A stretch of DNA of 64,000 bases from Utricularia gibba (taxonomy: Eukaryota > Streptophyta > Magnoliopsida > Lamiales > Lentibulariaceae), in assembly GCA_002189035.1 (NCBI GenBank), contig NEEC01000018.1, positions 1,674,001-1,738,000 on the forward strand. Direction: 5' to 3'. This document shows, piece by piece, positions 37,676 to 59,901 of this stretch. The notes under the pieces are model-generated. The model had not been told where the DNA came from, ran no database searches, and worked only from the letters and a program-made list of their open reading frames with translations. The position numbers and the translations under genes were made by a program. Numbering within the stretch: position 1 is the stretch's first letter; each line of letters starts with the position of its first letter.

Positions 37676-38966
37676 TCTCTCTGCTTTCAGCAACTAGTGT
37701 GTTTTACTCATAGAACAATAAGACGTCTGTGCGTTTCTTGAATTTGGGTTCATATGATTGCTTTTTTACTTGAATATGGAATCAAAATCTCCCCTTATTT
37801 TCCTTGAGCACTGTAAATGTTGATGATGAATTGAATCCTCTTTCAAATATACAACTTACATGCTCACAATCCAATAACATATTTTTTAAAGCCGTATAAA
37901 TCAAGGAATGCAACACGAGTATTTTCTAGAAGATCATTCATTTTAATATTACTCTCATCCAAGCATGCTTAATTTCGAAGTTTTGATGAAATTTGATATA
38001 TTAGTGTTAATATGATCGTACTCGAATGATGTTGCACGATCAAGTAAACCATATGTCATGCTCTTTGTCCAGTAAACATGATCCATGTGACATATAGTAT
38101 ATCGTTTCGAAGCTCTCTATGAATCCAACACACAAAAAACTGCTTGGACGATCATACGATGATGTTACGAAACTCAAAATGCACTCATAATGGGGATGAT
38201 GCGCAACAGCAACACATCGTGTCGAAAACGTAAATGTTGTCATTAGCGAACGCTACGTTAATGCGAAGGAGACCACAAGGTATGCGAGACATGCTGTCAA
38301 CTAGAAATTGCAAAAATATATGTAAAATTAAATTATATTGATTATTTAATGAATAATAATATTTTATATATTCAATTATTTAATTTTAATTTTTTATGTG
38401 AAATAATTTATTTTAATATTAAGAAAACCTTGCAATTTTGAATTGTAAGCCACACCCACGAATGATGTACGGTTTTTTTAGAATCGTAACACACTGATGT
38501 ACACAAAAAATATAAATAGAAAAATGATGTGATTAAATATTTAGCATTTAAACATAGCATTTATTTTTATTGTTTTGGGCCTGCTAATGGAATGTTGTTG
38601 TGGGCTGAGCCCATTACAGAACCCAATAAAGGGGCCTCCTCTGGATGGAAGAGTTCTATCGCGCTAGGGTTTCTTCTTGTTGCTCATCAGTCTCTTCCCT
38701 CGGATTTCATTCAGGTTTCAGTCTCACGCGGATCTTGTTCAGTATTTTGTTTTTCCGATTTCTGTTCGCGATATTGTTCTATTTTCTAAGGGCTCCGTTG
38801 GTAGATTTCTGGTACCTCGTGTCCCTTGTTTTGATTCAAGTTCCCGCAGACGTTTCTTTTGGTCTTTGACGCAGAATTCTTTATGTTTTTTGGCACTACT
38901 AATCTGCGGCATCTAACTTTATCATTATCATAGGAGGAGTTTGGTTGATTCAAATTTGCTGCAACA
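37676..38966. other. PDH 3' region, AT-rich spacer and eIF3c leader
   Basis: 37676-37860 is the likely 3' UTR of PDH. 37860-38560 is AT-rich with no gene. From 38571 the eIF3c promoter and leader begin: TGGGCC/T motifs, then a pyrimidine-rich start (CTAGGGTTTCTTC near 38663) and a probable leader intron ending before the ATG at 38967. Confidence 0.5.
38576..38613 (+). promoter_or_regulatory. Site-II type elements upstream of eIF3c
   Basis: TGGGCC at 38576, TGGGCT at 38601 and the inverted AGCCCA just after it form a cluster about 60-90 bases before the likely start of transcription. Such clusters mark plant ribosomal and translation-factor promoters. Function is inferred from position and motif only. 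Confidence 0.5.
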
Positions 38967-54967: not shown

Positions 54968-57900
54968 AGCAGTATTTACCAATCCAAAACGTTACCTTAT
55001 GAGGAAAAAAATATATACAAAACAATGTATCAGATGACAGTTTCCCATCCCAAATCTCACAAGGAAAACACATTTTGGAAAATGAGACAAAGAATTCAAA
55101 GCTGTATAAGGAATCAGAGAGTATGGTAAATATCGAAGCTGATTATTGATTGATATCAGGTAAGGAAATGAATGAAGAAAATGCCCATCTGGATGGTTCC
55201 TCACACATGAAATCAGTAAATAGACGTTCCAAAAATACGACAATCAAAATAGCAAGTGCACAAGTTAACCACATCCTACTCACCACGTTTTCCAGTGAAA
55301 ATATATGAGGAATACCAAACTCAAAACATGCAGAATTCGTCCAGTATTAGTTGTATTATCCATCAAGCAAGAAATTTTCGCATTTATTCAAATACATAGG
55401 AGTGCACTCAGAAGTCGCAGTCACAGAATCGATGTCACGAACTGATGGGGGCTTCGCTAAAAGTATCAACTTTTCTCAAACTTCCAAAAGAGGAATGCTC
55501 ATCAAACAGATAGCGTTTGAATGAACACGAAAAGATCGCCAGGAGGAAAAGAAAAACTAAAAAAATTAACCAAACATCAGGGTTGCAACTGCACTATCAA
55601 CTTTCAAAAACATAATCACTATTAGGCAAAAAAAAAAAAGAGCAACTCTCGATGAAAAGAAAACGGAGGGGTGGTAAAAAGAACAGAAAAAGAAAGACAA
55701 GTACAAAAGAAACTAGAACAAAAACCAAAAAATAGAGATTTTTTTTTTCAGTAAAAGTTGAAGTACCGGCCAAAGAACTCATTGGCAATTTTAACAAAGC
55801 TCTCAGGCTCAGGATCAATTTTTGCCGAACAAGTGTCCGTACGCTCATCTCGTTTCGCTAACCTGGATTCTTCTATCGAATAAGATGCCGACTCCAGAGG
55901 CGATTAAAAATTGGTTCTTCACACGGTTTCCGTCTCCCTCGTTTCGCCCTTTACGAAGGCCTCAATCCCAAGTCACTATGATGTCACCTAGAATCCTTGT
56001 GTGAACGAAATTGGTTCCAGAATCTTGCTAACAACTGATGAAGCATCCGCAACCCTACAAGAACACTCGAATTGCGAGAAGAGGAAAAGAGAAATACTGA
56101 TTAAAATTAAGAAGGCGTCGTGTAGCTACACGAACCCTAGACTCCATGAAATTTTGCCTCCAAAACCCGCCAACCCGAACCCGAACCACACCCACAAAAA
56201 CCCATACATACGTATATCTATATGTATGTATATATGGATTTTCATTAAAATATTAAAAATTAATTATTGATAGAATATTATTTTTAATATATTATTTCTT
56301 ATTTTAATGATAAAACATATACCATAATATTTTCCTTATTTTAAAAACGAATATTTAAAATGATAAGTTTCACCAACTCTAAAACATCACCACTTTTAAT
56401 TTTAATAATTCAATTTTGCCATTATTTAATTCGACATAATTTACTTCTTCAATATGAAAATGTATATAATAACATATAAATATTATATTTTGACTTTTAC
56501 TATTATTTTTTTCCAAATAAGAAAGCAAGTAATTGAATATAATTTATCATATTATAGATAAATAATATCATATTAAATGATCGAATTTTATAACATTAAT
56601 AATAATAATAATTTCCTATCATAGTATAATACAAAATATAAATAGTTGGAACTGTAATGATATAATTCATGACGTTATTTTTAAAAATATTTTATTTTAT
56701 ATAGTACATAATTTAATAAGTTTTCCACCTACTTATGTATAGAAATTTAATGGTTAAAAAAAGGGCAAAAATATTAAAAACGTATATTAAATTATATTTT
56801 ATGAGAATTGATTCTTAATAATCATTTCAATTCAATGAAAATCATGAGATGGTAAATTTTCTATAAGAATTTTTTATAATCGATTTTAAAATTAAAGTAA
56901 TTACATAAAATATAATTCAAAAATCATATAATATTTTATTTTTATATAGAACATGCATTAATAACATTTACATCAAATTATATACGAAAATTTAATGGTT
57001 AAATAAGATAGAAAAAATAACAATTTTTTTAAATAAAAATGACATAATTGTTACATAGAAAATAAACTGTAACCAATAAGAAAAGTAGCTAATAGGAACT
57101 TTAGCAATATTTGGAAGTATCCAAAATCAATTCTATTCTGATATTTTGGCAAATTCAATTTTATGACATTTTGATAAATAGTTAGACCTAAAGGATATCA
57201 AATACTTTAATTCTACCTCATAACGTGACTTGTATATATCTTGGCACATTCAATGACACTTAAGGTCTGTTTGATGTAGCTAAAAAACACGTCTAAATAA
57301 GTGATTCTTGAAATACTTCAATTTAAAAAATTTAAAACGTTTCACTGTTTCAATTTCATGTGTAACATAAACACCACATGTTTTGTTCAAGAATCAGTTC
57401 TATTTGAGAACACCATAGTGAACTAGAGAAAATAATTGACATTGAGCATTTGATAAACACTTAGTATTGAGTGTAGGTGGAGATAGTCTCAAGTCAATCT
57501 ACAATATGTCTTAGGTTTCTTGATTGTTTCTTTTCATAATAAAAGCATTTTGTGCCCTTTTGTTTTTTTTGATGGAGTGGCATCCCTGTCAAAAGGTGAC
57601 CTTAAAAGCAGAGCCCTTATCTTCCCATGTGAATTTGGTAAAAACCCTAAACCTTCGAGGGTGGAAGCTGAGGACACAACTGCGTTGAAATGCGGACTTC
57701 AACGGGTGGAGGGAGGAAAGAAAGAGAAGGAAAGTAACTGCAAATCCAGATGAATGAGCAGGGAAAGGAATCTAATCAATGAAATAAGAAAAGAGGGACG
57801 ACGCTTCCCGAGAAACGTCACAGTGCAGTAAATCGTAATAAATATCTAAAATGAATCAAGTGTCTGTCTTCCTCTTCCTCTTCCTGCTTCTCCTCCTCTT
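54968..57900. other. RING leader, AT-rich spacer and MIR159 upstream region
   Basis: 54968-56000 is probably the 5' leader (perhaps with an intron) and promoter of the minus-strand RING gene; its ORFs are unconvincing. 56270-57500 is very AT-rich with a diverged direct repeat (about 56684-56758 against 56928-57003). A telo-box-like AAACCCTAA lies near 57644. 57850-57900 is a CTTCCT-rich stretch leading to the MIR159 TATA box. Confidence 0.5.
56684..57003. repeat. Diverged direct repeat, about 75 bp per copy
   Basis: Copies at about 56684-56758 and 56928-57003 share TATTTTATTTTTATATAG at the left and GAAATTTAATGGTTAAA at the right with differences in between. AT-rich sequence makes some similarity expected, so this is a modest claim. 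Confidence 0.4.
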
Positions 57901-57901
57901 C

Positions 57902-57908
57902 TATATAT
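57902..57908 (+). promoter_or_regulatory. TATA box of MIR159 (predicted)
   Basis: TATATAT at 57902, preceded by a pyrimidine-rich tract and followed about 30 bases later by TTCTCTAGGG, a likely start of transcription. It lies about 200 bases before the miR159 foldback, a usual distance for a Pol II microRNA gene. Confidence 0.55.
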
Positions 57909-58071: not shown

Positions 58072-58101
58072 ATGAAGTTCCTTTATCAGATGGGGGTTTA
58101 G
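58072..58101 (+). other. First small ORF in the predicted MIR159 primary transcript
   Basis: Nine codons plus stop (MKFLYQMGV) opening with the first ATG after the predicted transcription start and ending ten bases before the hairpin stem. Some plant pri-miRNAs code regulatory peptides (miPEPs) from such ORFs. Nothing here shows translation. Confidence 0.3.
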
Positions 58102-58105
58102 GGTT

Positions 58106-58224
58106 TGAGAGTGGAGCTCCTTAAAGTCCAAAAGAGGTTCTTGCAGAGAAGACGCTGGCTGGTGTTGTCACAGCAGATGCCTCTTGTTTGAACCTCCTTT
58201 GGATTGAAGGGAGCTCTACTTTTT
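58106..58224 (+). ncRNA. MIR159: miR159 precursor
   Basis: The 3' arm at 58198-58218 is identical, as I remember it, to the 21-nt miR159a (starts TTTGGATTGAAGG, ends GAGCTCTA), which silences GAMYB-type MYB mRNAs in anther and seed tissues. The 5' arm 58111-58140 pairs with 58190-58219 in a 30-position stem with four mismatches and a few G-U pairs, as expected for a plant miRNA duplex; the star strand falls near 58113-58133. The loop is only 49 nt (58141-58189). Known MIR159 foldbacks are usually around 180 nt with a long upper stem, so this copy is compact. The related miR319 is excluded because it reads TTGGACTG. A TATA box lies about 200 bases upstream. Confidence 0.92.
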
Positions 58225-58806
58225 CCACCCTCTCCCCTGCACTTCAGATCAGCCCATCTTTCTGATTCCAACTCTTTTTTTTTTGTAGCTTGCAGAAGAA
58301 GAGCTTTTCTGGGCATGGGTTCGGATCTGGATCAGGATCTGGAACTGGGTTCACTGCAGAAGTGGCCGGTTGTCGTTATTGGGGAGGAAGATCCGATCGG
58401 ATCTGATCTGAGTTGTCGGAGAATCTAAGCCTTAGATTTATCTCTGTGTGTCTGAATGGAAAAAAAATTACTCCTGTTTCGCGTTTAGGGCAACCTCCTC
58501 CTGAATTGGGAGATTTTCAATTTTAATTTTTTATTCTGTTTCTTTTTATAATGTTTAATTTGTGTGAATAAAGATTATTCCATTTATTAATTAATTCTGA
58601 TAATTAACCACTAATTGAAGTAAAACCTGAATCAAAACTGAATTATTGGCATTAATTGTCAAAAATAAAATAAAAAAAATTTGACGGTTGGCGAGCCGCG
58701 TGGAGAGGATAAAAGCGGAAAGTACGTACTTCACGTGGTTAGCCGAGCGGCGGTTGTAAGCAATATAATAATCAGCTTTATTGTGGCGGTAGTTGTGCTC
58801 CGGCGA
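58225..58806. other. 3' part of pri-miR159 and ClpS1 promoter
   Basis: Probably the 3' part of the MIR159 primary transcript to about 58500, then a short AT-rich gap and the promoter of ClpS1. The 74-codon ORF at 58204-58428 overlaps the mature miRNA and is not family-like. Confidence 0.5.
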
Positions 58807-59901
58807 ATGGAGACGATCATCGGCTGCGGAAGAGTGGCGCTCTCTCCGAATCATGTTTTCAACTCGCCGTCTGGTAAGATTGTAGCGTTCGGAGGTTTGA
58901 TTATCGTTTTAAATTTTTTAGGTGCGGCTTTTATTTTATTTTTACACATAGTTGCAGAGTAGTTCATCTGCGGATTTAGGGAAACAAGTTATCTGACAAG
59001 CGTTTTAGGAAATTTTGGTTGTTTTGATGATTTGTGTGTGTGTGCAAATATCACTCCCGCTTAGTCATTGAAGTGAACTGTTGAACTTCTGTCTTGCGTT
59101 AGAAAATGGTAAAGCGTGCAAAGTATGCTGTTTATTCTGATCTAGTGAAGAGCAATCTAATTTTGCTAGCCAGGGTTACAAGTCTCAAGTGTTGGTAATG
59201 GAGAATTTAATGTGATGGATGATCCTTGCTGTTTTAAGTATGACAGAATAGGGCTCTCATGATGTGTGCGCAGGGGAGAGATATCCTCTTCATACACGAT
59301 TTTTGAATGGCAGCGCTTTGACAGCCAAGGCAATTACTGGTGTGGGGAAAGGTGGACTTTTGGAGAAACCTGTAACAGAGAAAGCAAGCCCAGGCCGTGA
59401 GTCTGAGTTCGATTTGAGGTATGGATGCTGGCCTTTTTCTTCACTCCCTTACACGTCATTGCAAGCTGTGGCATTTTGTGAAGCTCAAGCGTTGCTTGCT
59501 GGCATTTTCGTCACTCCCTTATGGCAGTTCCTTTGATTTGTGCATGTTATTCAGTGTGTTTGCCATTGGTTGAATCCAATATCAGCTCTACAAGTTTTGC
59601 TTTTACACAGGAGTTAATTCACTTCTTCCTTAAATGCAGGAGGTCAAGGAAAACGTCACCACCATATCGTGTGCTTCTGCACAATGACAACTACAATAAG
59701 AGGGAGTATGTTGTGCAAGTTTTGATGAAGGTTATTCCCGGGATGACACTTGACAATGCTGTGAATATCATGCAAGAAGCGCACCACAAAGGCATGTCGG
59801 TGGTGATAATCTGTGCTCAAGCCGATGCCGAAGAGCACTGTATGCAACTTAGAGGCAATGGTCTTTTGAGCTCAATTGAGCCAGCAAGCGCTGGTTGTTA
59901 A
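58807..59901 (+). CDS. CLPS1: ClpS1, plastid Clp protease adapter
   Basis: N-recognin-type adapter that delivers substrates to the stromal Clp protease. Three exons: 58807-58873, 59274-59418, 59640-59901; 157 residues, against 159 in Arabidopsis. The first 60-70 residues fit a transit peptide. The ClpS core follows: PPYRVLLHNDNYNKREYVVQVLMKVIPGMT, then AVNIMQEAHHKGMSVVIICAQADAE, including the NDN and HxxG-like features of the substrate pocket. All introns are GT-AG and in phase. An alternative AG at 59610 would insert extra residues and is less family-like. Confidence 0.94.

Follow-up and report, generated by a model that had tools for sequence, protein, structure and literature searches.

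The window, a stretch of 64,000 nt from Utricularia gibba contig NEEC01000018.1, contains a MIR159 gene with a compact hairpin. The canonical miR159 sequence TTTGGATTGAAGGGAGCTCTA is present as an exact 21-nt match at 58198–58218 on the + strand, where the original prediction had read it, and a search of the window allowing ≤3 mismatches to miR159 gave one match, compared with a mean of 0.01 expected from shuffles. Folding of 58080–58240, the check proposed in that prediction, yielded a stable hairpin of −75.9 kcal/mol versus −50.4 ± 4.3 kcal/mol for dinucleotide shuffles (n = 200), with a z-score of −5.88 and 0 of the 200 shuffles as good. Mature miR159 sits on the 3′ arm, with 19 of its 21 nt paired with a well-paired miR*. 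Because miR nt 1 (58198) pairs with 58132, the predicted miR* (GAGCTCCTTAAAGTCCAAAAG) was placed at 58114–58134 on the 5′ arm with a 2-nt 3′ overhang; a star on this arm had been expected near 58113, and the pairing adjusts its position slightly.

Directly above the miR duplex, 7 continuous base pairs are predicted between 58134–58140 and 58190–58196, followed by a 4–5-nt bulge on the 5′ side and by weaker pairs (58145–58152) toward the terminal loop. The region between the arms, 58141–58189, is exactly 49 nt long, which confirmed the loop length given earlier. The gap from miR* to miR, the measure of precursor length used in the literature, is 63 nt, and the hairpin as a whole is about half the usual MIR159 length. 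Below the duplex lies an imperfect lower stem, with its predicted 5′ side at 58092–58111 (58107–58111, 58100–58104, and 58092–58096) and its 3′ side at 58219–58238 (58219–58223, 58227–58231, and 58234–58238); five pairs down from the miR duplex, this stem is broken by a 3/2-nt internal loop. When compared with the Rfam MIR159 model (RF00638), the window hairpin was matched end-to-end with an E value of 6.6e-11 and a score of 54.3 bits, under the gathering score of 74, a shortfall that most likely reflects the long hairpin assumed in the 196-position model. The MIR319 model RF03483, which has 92 positions, likewise describes a compact hairpin, and its two best matches genome-wide were the window locus and a paralogue (38.7 and 37.2 bits). 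However, its gathering score of 54 bits lies above both compact loci, and the mature sequence at these loci is miR159, not miR319. Elsewhere in the window, an isolated A+T-rich 5S rRNA-like copy was observed at 37905–38023 (−) (29% GC, with a score of 54.3 bits that exceeds the gathering score), which is probably a decayed 5S gene copy.

To place the locus in its genome, the G000 assembly (100.09 Mb, 516 contigs) was searched. The 19-nt miR159 core has exactly two perfect sites, namely the window locus and C98:1142063-1142081(-). The comparison with other MIR159 copies suggested by the original prediction thus brought one further copy, and this paralogue is also compact, with 68 nt from miR* to miR. 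A covariance search, which scores the best candidates only and was run on an assembly that may be incomplete, added only eight MIR319 loci above the cut-off among the best candidates scored. By the core and covariance searches of G000, no other miR159 locus, long or short, was found beyond the window and C98 copies, and on these searches the two compact loci appear to be the only miR159 source of the plant. The eight MIR319 hairpins span 124–143 nt from miR* to miR, and their intervening stems reach z-scores of −2.6 to −7.8, whereas the RNA between the arms of the miR159 hairpins folds at best marginally better than shuffles (z −1.6 at the window locus and −0.1 at the paralogue). This difference between −1.6 and the MIR319 values indicated that the long upper stem is truly absent from the window MIR159, in line with the earlier claim that the upper stem and its extra phased cut sites are missing.

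Two repeated sequences were encountered in the same genome. Three copies of TTTGGATCGAATGGAGCTC (G000:C1:3474067, C3:224875, and C321:1567618; L005, L007, and L015) share the context TCAACAG.CCTTTGGATCGAATGGAGCTCCAGTC and form a small repeated family in which MIR159-like folding is absent. At G000:C1:8066814-8067303 (L037, approximately 1283–1848), a 78-nt unit is repeated in tandem about seven times. Most of the copies carry ATGGGAGCTCCCTTCAGCA, within which GGGAGCTCCCTTCAG is complementary to miR319 nt 6–20 with the seed side mismatched, and the array sequence occurs nowhere else in the genome except at one 2-mismatch site. The array could be a chance minisatellite with a palindromic core or a miR319-related decoy.

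Alignment with C98 revealed that about 23 kb of the window (38.6–61.8 kb) is collinear with this contig in reverse orientation. The gene order is the same in both copies and comprises a gene of weak O-fucosyltransferase-like similarity, a RING gene, MIR159, and ClpS; the C-terminal part of the neighbouring ClpS gene, at 59482–59901 (+), also adjoins the paralogous MIR159 and serves as a synteny anchor. The neighbouring genes differ between the two copies with Ks values of 0.36–0.76. Against this background, a 48-nt block at 58101–58148 (+), covering lower stem, miR*, and upper stem, is identical in the paralogue, and a 3′ block at 58181–58221 (+), covering the upper stem and miR, shows substitutions only at 58196 and at its last base, 58221. 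The difference at 58196 (C/T) retains pairing, with G-C changed to G-U, and the mature and star sequences are identical in the two copies. In total, 3 of 89 sites differ in the conserved hairpin zones, two of these at edges, which corresponds to a binomial P ≤ 8e-10 even at the lowest synonymous divergence. The conservation reaches about 15 nt past both arms of the miR duplex and ends at a scrambled loop, the centre of which (approximately 58150–58179) is not conserved and cannot be aligned between the copies. In the lower stem it covers about 10–13 nt, and the 5′ side, GGGTTTGAGAGT, which forms 5 + 5 pairs, is identical in both copies. As judged from this alignment, both compact copies are held under strong selective constraint. 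Since both are compact and their stems have remained near-identical over a neighbour Ks of 0.36–0.76, the comparison also indicates that the compaction predates the block duplication.

Further conservation was detected upstream of the hairpin. A non-coding block at 57764–57850 (+) is common to the window and the paralogue, and its conserved parts (GAATCTAATCAAT...GGACGACG.TTCCCGAGAA...CAGTAAAT) are strongly kept upstream of both MIR159 copies; it is probably a promoter element. A TATA-like box (TATATAT) at 57902–57908 (+), from which the hairpin lies about 200 nt downstream, is also conserved in the paralogue and may function in transcription.

Sites on which the miR159 could act were sought in the same genome. 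Four loci with the antisense pattern correspond to predicted MYB-type ORFs carrying the sense site GAGCTCCCTTCACTCCAA, which in two of them reads KLELPSLQY. This LELPSLQY context at the miR159 site is the canonical one of GAMYB genes. The R3-end motif LPGRTDNEIKN(Y/F)WNTRIKR is present in three of the four ORFs, and the L003 ORF begins downstream of it. A Pfam search scored no domain in the two partial target ORFs submitted, and the MYB-type call is based on the R3-end motif and on what is known of the family. GAMYB-type miR159 target sites are present in the genome.

The structural variety of this family has been described previously. Li et al. (2011) distinguished five structural types of MIR159/319, with 46 of 277 genes departing from the standard type 1 (PMC3118147). 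Type 1 precursors such as ath-MIR159a resemble the window MIR159 in mature sequence, 3′-arm position, miR* form, and GAMYB-type target sites, but separate miR from miR* by >60 nt and carry a further conserved duplex (ACR5/ACR3) on a long stem that is processed stepwise, starting at the loop (PMC3118147). The window MIR159, with 63 nt, no ACR5/ACR3 upper duplex, and an intervening z of −1.6, is not of type 1. It shares with type 2 and with the ACR-less types 4 and 5 a short hairpin from which the upper conserved duplex is missing, a form attributed to deletion (PMC3118147). Type 2 is limited to ≤60 nt, however, and the window and paralogue hairpins, at 63 and 68 nt, lie just over this limit, so that strictly they are placed in the ACR-less classes of >60 nt. 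The possibility raised in the original prediction that short MIR159 loops are common is borne out in part, as 19 of the 277 MIR159/319 genes are shortened to ≤60 nt (PMC3118147). Literature searches returned no match to the star and flank sequences of the window precursor and nothing usable on precursor lengths of other Lamiales MIR159 genes. Short loops alone have already been described; what seems new is that compact copies are conserved in duplicate and are seemingly the sole source of miR159.

Taken together, we propose, with a probability of roughly 0.6, that the window locus is a functional MIR159 whose precursor lost its upper stem before the duplication, that it is processed by DCL1 through a short, two-cut loop-to-base route, and that the two copies supply the miR159 of the plant. 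The long upper stem would have been lost before a genome or segmental duplication that gave rise to the two compact copies. An RNA polymerase II transcript would start near the TATA box and fold into the hairpin, and the first DCL1 cut would fall at the end of the miR/miR* duplex nearest the loop, positioned by the upper stem of about 15–17 positions and the terminal loop. A second cut 21 nt farther toward the base would release miR159/miR159*, and the released miR159 would repress GAMYB-type MYB mRNAs. Transcription, cut order, and repression are parts of this explanation that we infer. The compact geometry would accommodate two cuts rather than about four and fits a processing different from that of long precursors, one of the two options in the original prediction. 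Where processing runs from loop to base, the first cut is set by a bulge or terminal loop lying 15–17 bp above the duplex (PMC8688358), and the conservation of about 15 nt above the duplex, ending at the scrambled loop, fits a short route of this kind. Precursors of the short loop-to-base kind, among them ath-MIR162a (PMC8688358), are alike in the proposed two cuts and in about 15–17 stem positions above the duplex, but belong to an unrelated family, and for the window MIR159 the two-cut route is deduced only. The Arabidopsis mir159ab mutant was not rescued by a construct carrying the miR159a.1 duplex alone, although shortened miR159a forms that retained one further segment did rescue it (PMC9201385). 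As a separate observation on the processing machinery, the Dicer_dimer domain has exactly three matches in the genome (G000:C244, C3, and C255), as would be expected if DCL3 lacks it, which has been reported for Utricularia gibba (PMC8333044).

Some features of the hairpin speak against cutting from the loop. Only 7 upper pairs are continuous, those above the bulge are weaker, and the inter-arm fold barely exceeds shuffles. A functional compact gene might instead be cut base-first by DCL1, with an internal loop some 15 nt beneath the duplex placing the first cut at 58218/58219 and a second cut releasing the terminal loop, which would reverse the usual direction of the family. A known base-to-loop route does use a bulge 15–17 bp below the duplex (PMC8688358), and base-first cutting stays a candidate because the imperfect lower stem is also partly conserved in both copies, including the identical GGGTTTGAGAGT with its 5 + 5 pairs. 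That stem, however, is broken by the 3/2-nt internal loop only five pairs down, its pairing compared with shuffles is inconsistent (z −0.8 and −2.1), and the processing mode of miR159 is conserved wherever it has been compared across species (PMC8688358). The pairing statistics of the lower and upper stems do not separate the two directions of cutting, and on balance we regard the base-first route as unlikely, though a serious competitor to loop-first cutting.

It is far less probable that the locus is a poorly processed MIR159, either decaying or a pseudo-miRNA, as has been proposed for ACR-less members generally. Li et al. (2011) suspected types 2–5 of being pseudo-miRNAs on the ground that processing requires the upper duplex (PMC3118147), and the RF00638 score of the window hairpin under the gathering cut-off points the same way. 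The low score, however, most likely follows from the 196-nt model length. Unlike suspected pseudo-miRNAs, the compact pair comprises the only miR159 loci found and is strongly conserved: the duplicates have stayed near-identical in their stems over Ks 0.36–0.76, no further miR159 locus was found in the genome, and GAMYB-type target sites are retained. The suggestion in the original prediction of a degenerate family member is not supported by the same observations, as the sole other locus found is equally compact with near-identical stems. The window MIR159 therefore looks like a working shortened form and not a decayed copy. Of the miRNA reads of U. gibba, 94% come from five families, one of which is miR159 (PMC8333044); only the two compact loci were found to supply it, and the window MIR159 is probably already within the miRNA-locus list of that study. 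The alternative that the hairpin is a product of chance or an inverted repeat derived from a target, and not a MIR159 gene, had no supporting point and was rejected as next to impossible in view of the exact 21-mer on the 3′ arm, where it is expected, the fold z-score of −5.9, the Rfam E value of 6.6e-11, and the conserved syntenic paralogue.

What maintains a long stem with a second conserved duplex in the MIR159/319 precursors of plants from moss to angiosperms is still an open question. The conserved compact pair in U. gibba suggests that the long stem can go without loss of miR159, and offers a natural minimal precursor for probing the role of the upper duplex. More broadly, a flowering plant may have swapped its entire set of long, multiply cut MIR159 precursors for compact two-cut ones, with full output kept and the phased upper-stem siblings lost, a proposal to which we give slightly less than even odds. 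If true, it would be a natural demonstration that miR159 can do without the conserved upper duplex.
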